Program-made: the position numbers and the translations under genes
DNA from: Candidatus Cloacimonadota bacterium
Lineage (GTDB): Bacteria; Cloacimonadota; Cloacimonadia; Cloacimonadales; WRIO01
Length of the DNA stretch: 15,266 bases
Assembly: GCA_017998585.1 (NCBI GenBank)
Contig: JAGOCT010000012.1
Coordinates: 1 to 15,266, forward strand
Direction of reading: 5' to 3'
Notes under the pieces: generated by a model
Databases searched by the model: none
Told to the model about the DNA's origin: nothing
What the model saw: only the letters and a program-made list of their open reading frames with translations
In this document: positions 7,331 to 15,266 of the stretch, piece by piece
Layout of the letters: every line of letters begins with the position of its first letter
Position numbering within the stretch: position 1 is the stretch's first letter

Positions 7331-7963
7331 ATGAGTAAACCCGTTATAATAGGAATTGCCGGTGGATCTGGTTCAGGAAAAACAACCATTACCAAGGAGA
7401 TCAATAACACTTTTGAAAATAAAGTTTCTATCCTGATGCAGGACAATTACTATAAAAATTTTGACAAGCTTTCTATGGAAGAAAGAGCAAAAATCAATTT
7501 TGACCATCCTAATTCTTTTGACATCAATCTCTTTATTGAGCATATTGAATCTCTTAAAAACAAAATCCCTATTGAAATGCCTATTTATGATTTCAAAAAT
7601 CATTTGCGCAGTCATGAAAGTATCATGATTCAGCCAACATCAATCATTATCATCGAAGGAATTCTGATTTTTGATAATAAAAAGCTAAGAGAACTTATGG
7701 ATATCAAAATCTTTGTGGATACTGATGCCGATATCAGGATTCTCAGACGTATTCAAAGAGACATCAAAGAACGTGGCAGATCCCTGGACAGTATTATTGA
7801 TCAGTATCTGGAAACGGTCAGACCCATGCATATTGAATTTGTGGAGCCCAGTAAACGCCATGCTGATATTATTGTGCCTGAAGGCGGATTTAACAAGATT
7901 GCCATTGATATGATTATTACTAAGATTTATGATATTTTTAAGACAAAGGATAACAATCAGTGA
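7331..7963 (+). CDS. udk: Uridine kinase
   Basis: Cytosolic pyrimidine-salvage enzyme that phosphorylates uridine and cytidine to UMP and CMP. In 210 residues: Walker A GGSGSGKTT at 11-19, MQDNYYKN (36-43) with the catalytic-type aspartate followed by YY, NFDHPNSFD (56-64), the substrate-site YDFKNH (86-91), IIIIEGIL (105-112) as the Walker B-like strand, and an arginine-rich lid RRIQRDIKERGR (139-150). Length and motif order are normal for the family. It is the first gene after a strong promoter, and its TGA overlaps the GTG of the next gene by 3 nt. Confidence 0.94.
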   Translation: MSKPVIIGIAGGSGSGKTTITKEINNTFENKVSILMQDNYYKNFDKLSMEERAKINFDHPNSFDINLFIEHIESLKNKIPIEMPIYDFKNHLRSHESIMIQPTSIIIIEGILIFDNKKLRELMDIKIFVDTDADIRILRRIQRDIKERGRSLDSIIDQYLETVRPMHIEFVEPSKRHADIIVPEGGFNKIAIDMIITKIYDIFKTKDNNQ

Positions 7964-9291
7964 GAAAAGTCTTATTTGTGATATTAACCTTAAGTTTTCT
8001 TTGCCTGAATGCAAAGGAAAATATTACAATTTACAATGATAATTTTGCTTTAGTGCGAAGTCAGTTTGATATTCAGCTATCAAAAGGAATGCAAAACTAT
8101 ATTTATGATGACATCCCTTCTCAAATTGAAACCAACTCACTTGTCTTTAAAAATCAAGATAACAAACTTATGCTAATCTCCCAAAATTACGAATATGATC
8201 TGGCCGGGACAAACGCTATTCTGAACAAGTATCTGAACAAACAGATAGATATCACTATGCGGGATAAATCCAGATATTCCGGTATATTAACATTTTTTGT
8301 CGGGGATAGCTATGGTATTCAGGATAACGAAACCAAAGAAATGCATCTTATTAATAAAAGTGAAATAATGTATATCAATTTGCCCGAATTACCAGGTAAT
8401 TTCTACATAAAACCTTCGTTAAAATGGCAGATTGATGCTCCTAAAGCCGGCCAATACCCCCTTGACATCTCTTATATTACAAATGCTATCGACTGGTTTG
8501 TTACCTATAATGTGGTTCTTAATCCAGACAAGATGGAAGTCTCTCCCTGGGTTACAATAAATAATCAGAGTGGAAAATCTTATAAGGATATCAGCCTTAA
8601 ACTCATGGCAGGTGATTTGAACAAGGAAGAGTATGAGTATGAAGAAGGGATTGAGGAAATCTGTACAATTAAAAAATCTGTTATGAAGGATCCTGCATTT
8701 GAAGAAAAAGCCTTTGCCGATTATCATCTATACACGCTAGACCAGAATGTCAGTATCAATGAAAATCAGATTAAACAGATGGCTCTTTTTGATACAAAAA
8801 TCGTTGACTATGAGAGATTTTATGATTATACTTCTTTTAACGAAGAAGTTATCAGTAAAGTTAAGTTTAAAAACAGCGAACAGACCGGCTTGGGACTACC
8901 TCTCCCCAAAGGGATTGTCATGATGTATCTAAAAGATAAAAATGATAACCTTGTATTAGTTGATGAAGATGACATTGCTCATACTGCTTTAGACCAGGAA
9001 GTAGAACTTAGTAGGGGAAATGCCTTTGATATCATCGCCAAAACCACATTGATTAAATCAACTCAATTCAATCATGGAGCTGATCATGAGTTAAGTATTG
9101 TGATTGAAAACAATAAGAATGAAGATATTGAGCTTAGAATACAACATATATTTTACTATGATAATACGCAAATTATCAGTAAAAATTTTGATTATACAGA
9201 GAAAGACGCTTATTCTATTTACATTAACAGAAGAATTAAAGCCGGTACAACTGATTCCTTGTTTTGGACTCAGAGAGAAAAATATAATTGA
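7960..9291 (+). CDS. Exported DUF4139-domain protein, first paralogue
   Basis: Predicted secreted or periplasmic protein of 443 aa with no known biochemical role. A signal peptide covers about residues 1-18 (basic start, hydrophobic core, LNA before the likely cleavage site). The rest follows the DUF4139 pattern: TIYNDNFALVRS, DDIPSQIETNSLVF, QNYEYDL, KPSLKWQI, DISYITNAIDWFVTYN, WVTINNQSGKSYKDISLKL followed by AGDLN, then LYTLDQNVSINENQIKQM. The region predicted to be an insertion near 225-245 is acidic and has a cysteine (EEYEYEEGIEEIC), unlike its neighbour. The GTG start at 7960 overlaps the udk stop and has AAAGGA 9 nt upstream. It is followed 21 nt later by a clearly homologous gene, so this is a tandem duplication. 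Family assignment is from remembered motifs. Confidence 0.8.
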   Translation: MRKVLFVILTLSFLCLNAKENITIYNDNFALVRSQFDIQLSKGMQNYIYDDIPSQIETNSLVFKNQDNKLMLISQNYEYDLAGTNAILNKYLNKQIDITMRDKSRYSGILTFFVGDSYGIQDNETKEMHLINKSEIMYINLPELPGNFYIKPSLKWQIDAPKAGQYPLDISYITNAIDWFVTYNVVLNPDKMEVSPWVTINNQSGKSYKDISLKLMAGDLNKEEYEYEEGIEEICTIKKSVMKDPAFEEKAFADYHLYTLDQNVSINENQIKQMALFDTKIVDYERFYDYTSFNEEVISKVKFKNSEQTGLGLPLPKGIVMMYLKDKNDNLVLVDEDDIAHTALDQEVELSRGNAFDIIAKTTLIKSTQFNHGADHELSIVIENNKNEDIELRIQHIFYYDNTQIISKNFDYTEKDAYSIYINRRIKAGTTDSLFWTQREKYN

Positions 9292-9312: not shown

Positions 9313-10653
9313 ATGAAAAAAATCATTTTATGTCTTTTAGCCCTTAGCTTTATCTGTCTGAATGCCAAAGAAAACCTAACGATTTACAATGATAACTTTG
9401 CAGTTGTCAGAAGCCAGTTTGATATTCAGCTGGAAAAGGGAGTTCAGAACTACCTGTTTGATGATATTCCTTCCCAAATTGAGGCGACATCTCTTGTATT
9501 TAAATCAAAAGACAATAAACTTAAACTCTTTGCTCAAAACTATGAATACGATTTGGCTAACTCGGATGCAATCCTCAGAAAATACCTCAATGCCCAGATA
9601 AGTATCATATTAAAAGACAATAGCGAATTCTCAGGCATTCTTATCTTCTTTGATAATCAAAGTATCGGATTACAGGATAAAAGCACAAAAGAACTCTACC
9701 TCCTTAATAAGTATGAATTGAAAAATATCAGACTGAAGAACCTACCTGAAAACTTCTATATCAAGCCAACCCTTAACTGGCAAGTAAATGCCCCAGAAAA
9801 AGGCAAATTCCCCGTTGACATATCTTATATCACCCGTGGATTAAAATGGTTTGTGACTTATAATGCAGTCTTAACAGGCAACACGATGGAGTTAACCCCC
9901 TGGGTAACACTTGATAACCAAAGTGGTAAAGCATACAATGATATAAGCCTGAAACTGGTAGCAGGTGATGTGAATAAGATGCAACCTATTCAGGTAAGAG
10001 GTGGCAGAAGTAATACAGGCATGGTAATGGCTAAAGAAGACTTTGCACCTCCTTCATTTGAAGAAAAAGAGTTTGCTGATTTTAGACTTTACACTCTTAA
10101 CCAGAATGTAAGTGTTCAGGATAAACAGACCAAACAAATGATTCTCTTTGACCCTAAAACAATAGACATTGAGAAAATCTATGACTATAACAGTATGAGT
10201 GCCGAAGTCTTTAGTAAGGTTATTTTTACTAACAGTAAATCGAAGGGACTTGGTGAGCCTTTACCTAAAGGTGTTGTTAAAATGTATCTGAAAGACGCTG
10301 CTGACAATAATCTGGAGTTTGTTGGAGAAGATCATATCAATCATACCAGTCTGGACCAAAAAGTGGAACTGACAATGGGCAAAGCTTTTGATGTCATTGC
10401 AAAATCAAAAGTGATTAAAGATACTAAAATAGGTAATGAAACCGAAAGAGAAATGCAGATAACCATCGAGAATAAGAAGAAAGAAGATATCAAAGTCAGG
10501 ATTCTTCACAACCTTTACAATGGTAACTATACAATCACCAAAAAGAATTTTAATTATACAGAAAAAGATGCATATTCTATCTATATTGAAAGAATTATAA
10601 AAGCAGGTACAACTGACAACATAAGCTGGACACAGAGAGTCAAGAATTATTAG
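9313..10653 (+). CDS. Exported DUF4139-domain protein, second paralogue
   Basis: 446 aa, homologous to the preceding gene over its whole length. The signal peptide is nearly the same (ending LNA before KEN). Shared blocks include TIYNDNFAVVRSQFDIQL, DDIPSQIEATSLVF, QNYEYDL, DISYITRGLKWFVTYN, WVTLDNQSGKAYNDISLKL with VAGDVNK, and LYTLNQNVSVQDKQTKQM, plus a matching C-terminus (NYTEKDAYSIYIERIIKAGTTD). It keeps VRGGRSNTG after the AGDVN block, which looks closer to the ordinary DUF4139 form than the acidic stretch in its partner. AGGAGAG precedes the ATG. Both copies probably act outside the cytoplasm, perhaps in a shared structure, but function is unknown. Confidence 0.82.
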   Translation: MKKIILCLLALSFICLNAKENLTIYNDNFAVVRSQFDIQLEKGVQNYLFDDIPSQIEATSLVFKSKDNKLKLFAQNYEYDLANSDAILRKYLNAQISIILKDNSEFSGILIFFDNQSIGLQDKSTKELYLLNKYELKNIRLKNLPENFYIKPTLNWQVNAPEKGKFPVDISYITRGLKWFVTYNAVLTGNTMELTPWVTLDNQSGKAYNDISLKLVAGDVNKMQPIQVRGGRSNTGMVMAKEDFAPPSFEEKEFADFRLYTLNQNVSVQDKQTKQMILFDPKTIDIEKIYDYNSMSAEVFSKVIFTNSKSKGLGEPLPKGVVKMYLKDAADNNLEFVGEDHINHTSLDQKVELTMGKAFDVIAKSKVIKDTKIGNETEREMQITIENKKKEDIKVRILHNLYNGNYTITKKNFNYTEKDAYSIYIERIIKAGTTDNISWTQRVKNY

Positions 10654-10665
10654 GGGAGGTATCAA

Positions 10666-11628
10666 ATGGAAATCGGATTCAGACATTTAGATGAGCTATG
10701 TTTAAGTCTTATCAGTAAAAACACTATGGAAGAGAACTTAAGCCATATTATCAGAAGTATTGAAGATGAAGTAAGCTTTCAATCTTTGGGTATTTATTTA
10801 AAACCACGTAATGAAAATCATTATCAGGTAAAAATTCACAGACATCTGTCTCATCATTTTGTTAAGGAACATCTCATCGCAGAAGATGATAAACTGATTG
10901 AAGAATTAAAAAACTTAAAGTATATACATTGCAGTGATAAGAAGATTAAATTTGAATACGAAGCACTTGATCTAATCATTTTCCCAATCTATTTTCAAAA
11001 TTCATTTATTGGCTTTATCTTCATTGACAAGCTGGACGAAAGATTTAGTAATTATGAGATTGCTAAGTTAAACATCTATGTTGCATTGCTGTCTTTTATA
11101 CTTGAAATTGATCAGTTACAGCTTCACATCGAAAGAATTAATGAACTGGACAATGTAACAGGCTTGCTAAATCATAAATCATTCATCAAAAACTGTAAGA
11201 AGAATCATACATTAATGTCTCGATACAAAAGAGATTTTTCTCTCTGTCTTTTAAAAATAAACAAGCTTGATGAAATCACCCAAGTCATTGGTAATCATAA
11301 GCTCCCCAAATTTTTACAAGAGATTGCCGAGGTGATTAAAAGTAATATCAGAGAGACAGATTTTGCAGGCATTCTTTATCCAGACACATTTGGTATTTAC
11401 TACAACGAGATTAACAAAGAAACGGCTAAAATGGTTGCCGAAAGAATTCATTCATCTATCATCAAAAACCCACGATTTATCGCTGTTCAGTTTAAGTGGG
11501 GAATCAATGATAACAGAGAGCAAGAGATAGATTTTGATACCATGTTTAAGCAAACAGAAGAAGCTTTAATGGAATCAGTACGAAGTAGTCAGAGTCATAT
11601 CTGTGTTTATAAAAAGGAAGAAGAATGA
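10666..11628 (+). CDS. GAF-like plus degenerate GGDEF signalling protein
   Basis: A 320-aa cytosolic protein. Residues 1-150 read as a GAF-type sensor domain (alternating strands and helices, LDLIIFPIYFQNSFIGFIFID typical of its core). From LDNVTGLLNHKSF (161-173) the sequence follows the GGDEF fold: the DxLTGLxNR entry motif, then FSLCLLKINKLDEI where DxDxFKxIN is expected, then DFAGILYPDTFGIYY where the active-site GGDEF should be. YPDTF (238-242) replaces GG(D/E)EF and the metal-binding aspartate is lost, so it should not make cyclic di-GMP. It may bind nucleotide or act as a dimerising scaffold. GGGAGG precedes the ATG, and the stop overlaps the next start (ATGA). Confidence 0.78.
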   Translation: MEIGFRHLDELCLSLISKNTMEENLSHIIRSIEDEVSFQSLGIYLKPRNENHYQVKIHRHLSHHFVKEHLIAEDDKLIEELKNLKYIHCSDKKIKFEYEALDLIIFPIYFQNSFIGFIFIDKLDERFSNYEIAKLNIYVALLSFILEIDQLQLHIERINELDNVTGLLNHKSFIKNCKKNHTLMSRYKRDFSLCLLKINKLDEITQVIGNHKLPKFLQEIAEVIKSNIRETDFAGILYPDTFGIYYNEINKETAKMVAERIHSSIIKNPRFIAVQFKWGINDNREQEIDFDTMFKQTEEALMESVRSSQSHICVYKKEEE

Positions 11629-12074
11629 GAGACAAGCTTTTTAACAATCTCAAAGAAATTCAGCAGGAAATGCTGAAGATTGTTTCAGAAGTAAGTACAT
11701 TAACTCAATATCCGATGACACTCGATCAGAATAATATTGATAGTCACTGGGTACCTCATTGTGATATGTTTTCTATTGCAGACAAGCTTTACATTATTCT
11801 GGAGATAGCAAATATCAATCACAAAGAGCTCAGATACTCTATCAATGAAAACTTCATCAAAGTAAACGGAAAAAGAAACTGTGAATATCAGTATAAAAAT
11901 GTGTCTTTTTATAATATGGAGATTGAATCAGGTGATTTTGAAAGAAAAATATATTTTCCTGATTTAAATATTGATATTCATCATCCTGAGATTAAGTATG
12001 AAGAAGGCTTTTTAAAATTTGTGTTTCCTATTAAAGAGGATAAAGTACAGGTAATCCATATACAGATAGATTAA
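11625..12074 (+). CDS. Hsp20/alpha-crystallin-like protein
   Basis: A 149-aa protein with a helical N-terminus (about 1-30) and an alpha-crystallin-type beta-sandwich from about 43. The family pattern is visible: WVPHCDMFSIADKLYIILEIANI (start of the domain), YSINENFIKVNGKR (the nGkR strand), then EIESGDFERKIYFP (the ExxxGxFxRxxxLP motif), and IKYEEGFLKFVFP (the AxxxnGvLxixxPK position). It ends in VIHIQID. These proteins usually bind unfolding clients and form oligomers, but members next to signalling genes could serve as binding modules. It is translationally coupled to the degenerate GGDEF gene, which suggests the two proteins act together. Its stop overlaps the stop of the opposite-strand gene by 3 bp. 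Confidence 0.8.
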   Translation: MRDKLFNNLKEIQQEMLKIVSEVSTLTQYPMTLDQNNIDSHWVPHCDMFSIADKLYIILEIANINHKELRYSINENFIKVNGKRNCEYQYKNVSFYNMEIESGDFERKIYFPDLNIDIHHPEIKYEEGFLKFVFPIKEDKVQVIHIQID

Positions 12075-12448
12075 AAATTGTAAAAAGTAATCACACTTTC
12101 TACTGAAGACCACAGGAATGGTTTTGATATTACATTGTCAATACCATATTTGACATAATTTATGATCATTTCTGCAGATGGATTTTCAACAATCAATACC
12201 ACAATTGCATAAGGGTAGTAGCATTTAATTAAATCAATTATTTTGTATGCCTTCTCACTTTTTAGATTTTCAGCAACAAAAAAACAGTGATACTCTTCTT
12301 TCTCGATCTCTTTAATTGCAGAAATTGCATTATTTATGATCTTTGTTTTTATATTGAATGATAACAGGATTTGGTTTAATTCATTATAGACTTCAATATT
12401 TTCATCAATTATCAGAATATTTTCGATGCTTGTATTTAATTTTTCCAT
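12071..12448 (-). CDS. Stand-alone receiver-like domain lacking the phospho-acceptor Asp
   Basis: A 125-aa protein with the order of a response-regulator receiver domain. The first strand is NILIIDENIEV (10-20), with Asp15-Glu16 for the usual acidic pair. The third strand EYHCFFVAENL puts Ala59 where the phosphorylated aspartate should be. The switch Thr/Ser position is in VVLIVE (83-88) and appears lost. The last loop keeps ISKPF (Lys109-Pro110). It therefore has the fold but probably cannot be phosphorylated in the normal way. It has no output domain. It is the last gene of a minus-strand operon, and its ATG shares an A with the TAA of the preceding gene (TAATG). Confidence 0.75.
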   Translation of the reverse strand: MEKLNTSIENILIIDENIEVYNELNQILLSFNIKTKIINNAISAIKEIEKEEYHCFFVAENLKSEKAYKIIDLIKCYYPYAIVVLIVENPSAEMIINYVKYGIDNVISKPFLWSSVESVITFYNF

Positions 12449-12783
12449 TAGTTATCCCGCTTGTTTTTCATTTTATAAATGGAGAATACTGAACATTCAT
12501 TTATGTTATAATCGATATGGCTTAGAGTGTTTTTCGGATAAAATTGAAAATGACCTTTATAAATCTTAAAATGTCTTTCTTGTTTACTCAGAGGATTGAT
12601 ACACATTTTTTGAAATCCGTTTTTTGGTTCGAGCTCACTGCTTGTTGATTTTTTAGGGGCTAGAGGCGATTTTAATTTCTCAATAACTGATGAAAAGAAG
12701 AAAACTCTAATAATCAGAAAAATAAGTAGTAAAAACAGAATGACTGTAAGCGTAATGATAATAGCAAAATAATGATCAAGCAT
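12448..12783 (-). CDS. Small single-pass membrane protein, unknown function
   Basis: A 111-aa protein I do not recognise. Residues 6-30 are a long hydrophobic membrane segment at the very N-terminus (HYFAIIITLTVILFLLLIFL), followed by a short basic patch and a Pro/Ser/Lys-rich linker (about 38-55). The rest (about 58-111) is a small, polar, probably cytosolic or periplasmic domain rich in aromatics (HFKIYKGHFQFYP) with two cysteines (61 and 97). It overlaps the preceding gene by 8 nt and the following one by 1 nt, so it is certainly in the operon. By position it could tether the neighbouring soluble proteins to the membrane; that is inference. Confidence 0.72.
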   Translation of the reverse strand: MLDHYFAIIITLTVILFLLLIFLIIRVFFFSSVIEKLKSPLAPKKSTSSELEPKNGFQKMCINPLSKQERHFKIYKGHFQFYPKNTLSHIDYNINECSVFSIYKMKNKRDN

Positions 12784-14350
12784 TGTCGAATAACTTCTTG
12801 ATTAAGTGATCAAAATTTACCTCATCGAATGGATAATTTATCAATTCGAGTTGATTCACATTGTCACTGATGTTTTTGAGAAAATTTATACTCTTCTGTT
12901 CATTTAAGAATATATTTTTTAATGCATTATCTGAATCAGTCTGAATCTCTTTTGAGGTGTTCATCAGGTGGTCTTTTAAATGATTAAAAAGTTGAAGTTT
13001 AGTTTTCTCCTGAATGTTGATAAATATAGCAATCAAATGAAGGTCATTCTCAGAAATCTGATTGGATAGAATACATGACAGACCCTGATATTGCTTTAAA
13101 ATTTGAATAAAAGTAAATGAATCAAAACCATGAAGTTTGATTTTTACAAATTGAATTGAGCCAGCTTCAGCTATTTTTTTATAAATGTACTCTTTTAAAA
13201 CACGGAATACATTATCGAAGTAAACGATGTGATTATTATCTGAGTTGAATTGAACATCATTGTTAAATAGCACTGAAACCATCAGCTTTTTCTCGTTGTA
13301 GGGGATTACAGGAAACAATTTTGTTAAAAGAGCATACAACATATTTTGAGTATAAGGAAACTCTAAAAAATGGTCAATTCCCAATCGTAAAATCCTGACT
13401 TTTTGATTTGGATTCGTATTATGGCTGATAACAATTACAATCTTTGTCGTATCCAGTTTGTTTTTTAACTGGTAAGCGAGTTTTAATCCGTTGACATTGT
13501 TATAATTGATGGGTAAAAATAAAATATTGTTGTTCTTATAAAGCTTTTCTATCACCTGATCGATAATGTCAAATACGATAAAATGTGTTTGTTTTGTCAC
13601 CATTTTGGATAAAGGTTCTTGTAAGCCCATAATTTCTTTTTGCAAGAAAATCGTATCAATCTCATTGATAGAGATGTTTGGTTTCAAGTCGAGCTGAGGG
13701 AGAACAAAATATTGTTGAGACTGAATACTAAAAGCGATATCATGGTGTGTATCAGAATTAGTCAACCGGAAAGTCAGATAATGAATTCCCCCTTTATAAT
13801 TGAATTTAAAAGAAAACAAAGCAAAAATTTGCTTTTCAAAATATAACTGTAAATCATAATCGATGTTTGAAAAGTCAATAAAATGAGTACATGAATAATT
13901 TTTTAAAATGCTTATCAAACGATTAATGATGACTTTACTTGAAGAGACATTATTTCGGGGAATAAATGATTTGAGAGATTCAAAATAGATAAAGTCTGGT
14001 TCAAAGTGCTTGATGTAAGTTTGTAAATCATCAAAAATCATCTCTATGTTGTTTAAACTAGAAAGTATAATATCTAATTCAGGTGGTTGTTCTAGTATGA
14101 TTAAATCCTGATTTTCGATACATGATTGAATATCAAAATCAAAAGATAAAAATTCCTCAATTAGAGAGTCCGGATTTGAGTTACATAATATGATTACTTT
14201 TTTCTTAAGCTTTAAATGTGCAATAACAGACTGCACAATAAACAACAAGGATAATCTGGTATAGTTTGTCCTGATGCCGTATGTGTGGTTAATTTCCAGG
14301 TTTGATAAAACTTTATCAAAAAAGGGAATCCCTGTATAAAAACTTTTCAT
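12776..14350 (-). CDS. Degenerate KaiC/RAD55-like domain joined to a degenerate receiver domain
   Basis: A 524-aa cytosolic protein. The start TGIPFFDKVL (6-15) matches the KaiC/RAD55 opening TGIPGLDxLL, and KKVIILCNSNPDSLIEEFLSF (50-70) and DFDIQSCIENQDLIILE (71-87) follow the KaiC-type order. The P-loop position (GIRTNYTRLSLL, 25-36) has no GKT, and the Walker B-like strand reads PDFIYFESL (118-126). ATP hydrolysis is therefore unlikely. Residues about 231-345 fit a receiver domain in length and order: the acidic pair is Gln/Lys (237-238), the phospho-acceptor position is Pro280 (ILFLPINYNNVNG), and the FLxKPF lysine is Phe331. The remaining C-terminus (350-524) is unassigned; parts look like a very eroded GGDEF. 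It follows the HDOD gene by 1 nt. Family calls are by eye and need profile searches. Confidence 0.68.
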   Translation of the reverse strand: MKSFYTGIPFFDKVLSNLEINHTYGIRTNYTRLSLLFIVQSVIAHLKLKKKVIILCNSNPDSLIEEFLSFDFDIQSCIENQDLIILEQPPELDIILSSLNNIEMIFDDLQTYIKHFEPDFIYFESLKSFIPRNNVSSSKVIINRLISILKNYSCTHFIDFSNIDYDLQLYFEKQIFALFSFKFNYKGGIHYLTFRLTNSDTHHDIAFSIQSQQYFVLPQLDLKPNISINEIDTIFLQKEIMGLQEPLSKMVTKQTHFIVFDIIDQVIEKLYKNNNILFLPINYNNVNGLKLAYQLKNKLDTTKIVIVISHNTNPNQKVRILRLGIDHFLEFPYTQNMLYALLTKLFPVIPYNEKKLMVSVLFNNDVQFNSDNNHIVYFDNVFRVLKEYIYKKIAEAGSIQFVKIKLHGFDSFTFIQILKQYQGLSCILSNQISENDLHLIAIFINIQEKTKLQLFNHLKDHLMNTSKEIQTDSDNALKNIFLNEQKSINFLKNISDNVNQLELINYPFDEVNFDHLIKKLFDNA

Positions 14351-14351
14351 A

Positions 14352-15215
14352 TTACATGATATTCAGGAAAGCAAGGTAAGCATTATATTTCTGTTGAATC
14401 ACAGGAATCAAATTAGAGAAATCATTCCTTTTTATACCCAAATAATTCCATACCCATCTTGGAGCAAGTTCTACCAGCATGGAAGTGGACTGACCCAGCT
14501 CCATCCCTTTTGCAATGTTATTACCAATACTAATTGCTGCAACGACATCTTTATATGCTGGGGCATTGTCAATACTGTGATGATATTTGATTGAATAAAC
14601 TACGGTTTCAGGGAACATCCATAATTCTGCAAAAAAAGCGCCTATCTGCTGATGATCGAGTCCGATACACTTATTGTCAAGTGGTAAAGAATATTGATAT
14701 GGATTCTTAGTAAATTCCTTCATTAACATATCAAACTCTTCTGGGAGAAAATTCATGATAAAGAACTTGCCAATATCATGTAACAATCCGGCTGTAAAGA
14801 TCTGTTCTACATATTTGGGCTGAGTAATTCCAATAATTTGTTGAGCAGCGATAGCAGTTGCCAAAGAGTGCTTCCAGAGATTTTCACCATGAACTGTTTT
14901 TTGTTTATTCAGGGCTTTATTGAGTAAATTCACAGTAAAGATTTTTTCAAGCGCACGATAACCCAATAAAGATACTGCATGTTTAACTGTTGCAACACGC
15001 TTAGATAAACCATAAAAGCTAGAATTGGCCATTTTTAATACAGAGGCAGTAAGTCCAGGGTCTTTTTCAATAATATTACTTAACTGATCAACCTGAACAT
15101 CCGGATTTGACATGGCTTTGTTAAATTCTGTTAAAACGGAGCTATAATACAATAGATTGGCAGAATCATGACTTTGTTGTTGTAATAAACTCAATATTTC
15201 GTTTTTATTTTTCAT
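14352..15215 (-). CDS. HDOD-domain signalling protein
   Basis: A 287-aa cytosolic protein. Nearly all of it is one HDOD domain: IIEKDPGLTASVLKMANSSFYG (48-69), VKHAVSLLGYRALEKI (77-92), NLWKHSLATAIAA (112-124), AGLLHDIGKFFIM (142-154), GLDHQQIGAFFAELWMFPE (185-203) and YHHS (211-214). Most metal-binding histidines of the HD fold are kept, as is common for HDOD; activity as a phosphohydrolase is not established for the family. HDOD proteins link signals to phosphodiesterases, kinases or other outputs. The start at 15213-15215 is chosen because GGGAGA (15222-15227) lies just upstream and because the upstream sequence encodes the end of another gene in a different frame. An in-frame extension to 15263 is open but less likely. 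Confidence 0.9.
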   Translation of the reverse strand: MKNKNEILSLLQQQSHDSANLLYYSSVLTEFNKAMSNPDVQVDQLSNIIEKDPGLTASVLKMANSSFYGLSKRVATVKHAVSLLGYRALEKIFTVNLLNKALNKQKTVHGENLWKHSLATAIAAQQIIGITQPKYVEQIFTAGLLHDIGKFFIMNFLPEEFDMLMKEFTKNPYQYSLPLDNKCIGLDHQQIGAFFAELWMFPETVVYSIKYHHSIDNAPAYKDVVAAISIGNNIAKGMELGQSTSMLVELAPRWVWNYLGIKRNDFSNLIPVIQQKYNAYLAFLNIM

Positions 15216-15266
15216 TCCATTTCTCCCATAAAGCATTTTGAATAATTGCTTCGTACATTTCATACA
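15205..15266 (-). CDS. C-terminal end of an unidentified upstream gene
   Basis: In the frame starting at 15264 the minus strand encodes 19 codons ending YEAIIQNALWEKWNEK and a TAA at 15205-15207. The residue pattern looks like a normal amphipathic C-terminal helix, and an 11-nt overlap with the HDOD start fits the overlap style of this genome. It is too short to identify. It would be the gene before HDOD in the same operon. Confidence 0.5.
   Translation of the reverse strand, partial: YEMYEAIIQNALWEKWNEK

Follow-up and report, generated by a model that had tools for sequence, protein, structure and literature searches.

Two gene sets with degenerate signalling domains meet tail to tail in a Cloacimonadota genome, one of them possibly a BcsE-BcsF-like membrane scaffold

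What can adjacent genes do when their reading frames are intact and the signalling domains that they encode have lost their active residues? The question is raised by a 15,266-nucleotide stretch of DNA (the window) from a Candidatus Cloacimonadota bacterium (assembly GCA_017998585.1, contig JAGOCT010000012.1). A first-pass annotation described six adjacent genes on two convergent operons at 10666..15215 and read them as one locus, a scaffold or partner-switching assembly. The layout was confirmed: all six open reading frames (ORFs) are uninterrupted, and neighbours overlap or abut. The locus is a place where two gene sets meet tail to tail, the end of a plus-strand operon and a separate minus-strand module. 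By analogy, the module may work like BcsE-BcsF, as a membrane scaffold, here outside cellulose secretion; the case for this reading is about evenly balanced, and membership in the BcsE family is not claimed.

The central gene of the module (12776..14350, minus strand) encodes a BcsE-like, KaiC-like/receiver protein of 524 amino acids (aa). Its domains are a dead KaiC-type NTPase (residues 1-222), a dead receiver (228-350) and, probably, a dead GGDEF domain (351-524). Pfam matched KaiC (E = 1.5e-6) and, under the Pfam cut-off, Response_reg (E = 5.3e-5), and a profile of the protein family reached receivers with E = 1.4e-10 and, in a search of 177,635 sequences, KaiC with E = 5.2e-7. A Walker A motif was found in none of the 10 family members. 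By reading of the alignment, the internal receiver has Pro at the phospho-Asp position and Phe at that of the Lys. The third domain (about 350-524) was overlooked in the first-pass annotation. Its order of strands and helices fits a degenerate GGDEF domain, and the Foldseek alignments of an AlphaFold2 (AF2) model built from six sequences span the region; its predicted local distance difference test (pLDDT) score is low and no profile matched it.

The next gene (12448..12783, minus strand) encodes a 111-aa protein predicted from hydropathy and charge to be a single-pass membrane protein with BcsF-like topology. A hydrophobic stretch at residues 7-25 is followed by a basic stretch and by conserved NP and [ST][VI]F tail motifs; Pfam gave only matches under the cut-off. 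In all six membrane proteins compared, a single hydrophobic stretch near the N terminus is followed by a basic one, and NP stands at residue 58-63; the relatives' proteins are only 18-32% identical to the window's. Position and predicted topology appear BcsF-like in six of the seven loci.

The order of the module is a 109-aa protein, an HDOD protein, the KaiC-like protein, the membrane protein and a stand-alone receiver. The receiver (12071..12448, minus strand; Pfam Response_reg E = 2e-8) keeps D15/E16 and K109 and has Ala59 at the phospho-Asp column. Ala occupies this column in four of the six stand-alone receivers aligned (window, L001, L031 and L035), with an Asp one position further on in L001. 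The phospho-Asp is kept in the other two (L032 and L034), so not every member of the family has lost it. The HDOD protein (ORF 14352..15263, minus strand; Pfam HDOD E = 1.4e-51) most likely starts at 15215; its counterparts in L032 and L033 point to M17 as the first residue. It keeps HDIGK and, judged from its sequence, offers no clear case of lost residues. Upstream of it, 15205..15264 (minus strand) holds the C-terminal end of a gene that continues beyond the window, a homologue of the 109-aa protein found upstream of HDOD in L001.

The phylum was surveyed in 124 genomes, fragmented or of unstated completeness, and the KaiC-like gene was detected in six of them (E <= 1e-8). The small membrane gene and the receiver follow it in six of seven loci (all except L033). 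HDOD precedes it in five (window, L001, L031, L032 and L033), being cut by the contig end in L031, and does not adjoin it in L034 and L035. In L032, HDOD is split over two ORFs (L032:8580-9435), which is either a true break or an assembly error. The residue losses and the gene order recur in relatives at 19-44% identity and are thus beyond chance, as the first-pass annotation had held in arguing against random decay; the losses are inherited. A protein search returned four relatives of the 524-aa protein among the best 7994 candidates scored. The same search missed four distant phylum members found in the phylum genomes and therefore cannot show absence outside the phylum.

The comparison with BcsE arose from a weak match of the L032 protein to PF10995 (CBP_BcsE; 11.8 bits, where the cut-off is 25). 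As set out in two papers, BcsE is built of degenerate NTPase, receiver and GGDEF domains with BcsF as its anchor, both being parts of E. coli-type cellulose secretion (PMC7439463, PMC11470070). The gene after bcsE encodes BcsF, a small protein with one membrane pass that binds the degenerate NTPase domain of BcsE through its tail. When the 524-aa model was searched with Foldseek, E. coli BcsE took ranks 1-4 with alignments across all domains. Among the 50 matches listed, the BcsE rows alone covered all domains, and the KaiC rows covered 337-434 columns. The N-terminal domain was also compared with nine profiles, KaiC not being among them; the lowest E (0.0056) came from BcsE's, followed by full-length BcsE with E = 0.018 and by seven others at 0.23 or worse.

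Several results weigh against a BcsE-like reading. PF10995 matched two of the 10 family members, with a best E of 0.035, and not the window's protein. The TM-scores to BcsE were only 0.25-0.30, which could mean that the domains are arranged differently or that the model is at fault; the model is indeed poor (pLDDT 68.7, predicted TM-score 0.43, third domain worst). KaiC chains trailed BcsE by just two- to fivefold in Foldseek E-value. Alignment with hhalign gave E = 0.043 and a probability of 1.2% at full length against BcsE, and E = 0.0056 over 188 columns for the N-terminal domain. The third domain had no match to two GGDEF profiles or to the degenerate GGDEF part of BcsE. The I-site of BcsE (RxGD) was found at the aligned hairpin in none of the 10 members, compared with five of five BcsE sequences; RxxD occurs elsewhere in the C-terminal part of two of the 10. 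The membrane proteins of L034 and L035 are known by place, topology and tail motif, sequence search finding them barely or not at all. In six draft genomes, those of the relatives that carry the KaiC-like gene and not the window's own, BcsB was not found, CelA was not found over the cut-off (weak matches in four) and PilZ was found in one. Accordingly, a place in cellulose secretion was rejected for the module, there being no BcsB and no CelA over the cut-off in these genomes. The 524-aa protein was not classed as BcsE, since PF10995 scored below the gathering threshold and neither the I-site nor BcsB or over-threshold CelA was found. No paper joining BcsE and Cloacimon was found in the open-licence part of PubMed Central.

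The alternative that survives best is that the module is unrelated to BcsE. A KaiC-like ATPase-receiver fusion would then have lost its active sites independently, and its likeness to BcsE would stem from convergence or simply from the sharing of two widespread folds. The N-terminal domain does match KaiC by sequence, as given above; BcsE is absent from the 45 sequences listed at E <= 1, its pairwise E being only 0.0056, and KaiC chains score nearly as well as BcsE in Foldseek. Set against this are the BcsE rows that alone, among the 50 Foldseek matches listed, align over all domains, the next-door membrane gene and protein length, both of which match BcsE-BcsF, and the wide alignment that, of the nine profiles, only BcsE's gave with the N-terminal domain. 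A structure search of residues 1-222 listed 50 matches, KaiC-type chains plus two related archaeal chains; that BcsE is not among these 50 is no evidence either way. An origin apart from BcsE is a serious possibility, held at somewhat doubtful strength, and it would still mean a pseudoenzyme scaffold.

If the module does work like BcsE-BcsF, the single-pass protein would bring the 524-aa protein to the inner membrane, probably by way of the conserved cytosolic tail of the 111-aa protein. There, the 524-aa protein would act as a docking platform, with the stand-alone receiver and HDOD as its putative regulatory partners and a client outside cellulose secretion. A wider proposal takes the BcsE-BcsF scaffold, a membrane anchor joined to a platform of three dead domains (NTPase, receiver and GGDEF), for a general device of older origin, wired in Cloacimonadota to a receiver and HDOD for a non-cellulose client and recruited by enterobacteria to cellulose secretion; this is put forward tentatively and is rather unlikely on present evidence.

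The plus-strand genes belong to a different setting. The first (10666..11628) encodes a 320-aa GAF-GGDEF protein that is predicted to be catalytically dead. Pfam matched GGDEF with E = 4.8e-15, and the GAF half had no Pfam match at E <= 1. Its AF2 model (pLDDT 88.5) aligned full-length in Foldseek with sensor-GGDEF cyclases over 319-374 columns, with 5llw (a bacteriophytochrome diguanylate cyclase) and 4zmu (Dcsbis, also a cyclase) among the best matches. Both are presumably carriers of GAF domains, and the model suggests a GAF identity for the first half of the protein. The GGDEF signature is degenerate and reads YPDTF (11377..11391, plus strand). Five residues ahead of the signature position, the codons for R229-E-T-D232 (11350..11361, plus strand) preserve the I-site.

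These motifs were surveyed in 43 family sequences. A set of 44 loci supplied 31 distinct ones, the protein search supplied another 11, and the window's protein completes the count. The proteins of four further genomes without a fetched locus (G068, G070, G076 and G107) were left out. A GGDEF-like signature was found in none of the 43, and the RxxD I-site was present in 35, the window's included; among the eight misses R was replaced in five and D was changed to E in three. After clustering at 80% identity, RxxD remained in 31 of 36; the sequences are related, and the motif counts are not independent events. The family thus has the GGDEF fold, lacks the signature and in most members retains the I-site, the combination expected of GGDEF-fold c-di-GMP receptors. 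On this sequence evidence, the protein has probably given up c-di-GMP (cyclic di-GMP) synthesis and most likely reads c-di-GMP as a receptor, with the Hsp20-like protein as its operon mate. Each of the six module genomes encodes one or more other GGDEF proteins that carry GG[DE]E[FI]. In four loci (L085, L086, L087 and L092, of genomes G105, G106, G001 and G104), a 497-519-aa GGDEF protein with an intact-looking signature is encoded beside an ABC transporter ATPase-like gene, as judged by its P-loop sequence. The GAF-GGDEF gene was not found in G105 and G106 in the phylum genome search, which also speaks against a single six-gene locus. In open-licence PubMed Central, searched with the name stem Cloacimon only, no paper joined Cloacimon and c-di-GMP.

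The GAF-GGDEF gene and the Hsp20-like gene (11625..12074, plus strand; alpha-crystallin domain, Pfam HSP20 E = 6.9e-8) close a conserved Cloacimonadota operon, dnaX...udk-DUF4139. Upstream of GAF-GGDEF, udk was present in all 14 loci followed, with a DUF4139 gene between the two in 11 (not in L005, L007 and L011). Thirteen of the 14 carry Cloacimonadota, Cloacimonas or Cloacimonetes names; the last, L002, is titled Armatimonadetes, has the Cloacimonadota operon, was counted in that phylum and is probably mislabelled. In the window, tandem DUF4139-type proteins lie at 7960-9291 and 9313-10653, their Pfam matches being weak and below the cut-off, and a single copy occupies this position in L001 and L031. 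The Hsp20-like protein was found in 55 of the 124 genomes (E <= 1e-6), and its list shares seven genomes with that of GAF-GGDEF. GAF-GGDEF is immediately followed by the Hsp20-like match in five of the seven (G010, G068, G070, G072 and G107); in the other two (G011 and G012) weak Hsp20 matches lie on separate contigs. A DUF4139 ORF adjoins the Hsp20-like match in nine of 10 loci fetched; both were called as ORFs in seven, and L077 showed neither.

A single signalling assembly made up of all six, as first proposed, is very unlikely. The two operons do converge in the window and also in L001 and L031, though without the Hsp20-like gene at the junction in L001 and L031; in the window, the stops of the Hsp20-like and receiver genes share four bases (12071-12074). 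The KaiC-like operon has other neighbours in four of the six genomes that carry its gene (L032, L033, L034 and L035), and GAF-GGDEF occurs in 35 of the 124 genomes (E <= 1e-30) as against six for the KaiC-like gene. Gene neighbourhoods therefore reject a single six-gene cluster: as a set the six are scattered, whereas the KaiC-like, membrane and receiver genes stay together. Much else in the first-pass annotation was upheld. Pfam bore out the relations to GGDEF, receiver and KaiC domains (4.8e-15, 2e-8 and 1.5e-6), and the losses of active residues lie where it had placed them (YPDTF, Ala59, no Walker A, Pro at the phospho-Asp). Its idea that dead folds serve for binding while the membrane protein tethers them accords with the BcsE-BcsF resemblance; the single locus and the partner-switching assembly found no support.

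Least probable of all is that the module is a relic whose dead domains are on the way to loss, for although its KaiC-like gene occurs in so few genomes, HDOD is split in L032 and the membrane proteins have diverged so far, the frames are intact, the proteins of the family vary little in length (510-537 aa, leaving aside the partial record P0003) and 15 residues are invariant across the 10 sequences.

If the BcsE-like reading is right, a counterpart in a different phylum that seems to lack cellulose genes would indicate that pseudo-signalling scaffolds of this build can be reused, and would allow general contacts to be told from cellulose-specific ones. In Cloacimonadota, the GAF-GGDEF family is a candidate c-di-GMP receptor that lends itself to a simple test.

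Among known systems, PelD, which presumably also has a GAF domain, is closest to the GAF-GGDEF protein. Unlike PelD, the latter shows no membrane part in Pfam or by eye, and its gene sits in a housekeeping operon and not with pel genes. PelD-type degenerate GGDEF receptors have likewise lost the signature and kept the I-site (PMC7439463). Both module receivers lack the phospho-Asp, as do the aspartate-less receivers (PMC4395418), from which the stand-alone family differs in that two of six members retain it. KaiC shares its fold with residues 1-222 of the 524-aa protein, whose family differs in lacking Walker A throughout and in having just one KaiC domain, with a receiver after it. From BcsE-BcsF, the module is set apart by the missing RxGD I-site, by genomes in which BcsB and CelA over the cut-off were not found, by a membrane protein longer than BcsF, and by a receiver and HDOD as partners in place of BcsRQG. 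The two have in common the order of degenerate NTPase, receiver and, probably, GGDEF domains, a length of 523 (BcsE) versus 524 aa, and a next gene that, like bcsF, encodes a predicted single-pass membrane protein with a basic cytosolic side.
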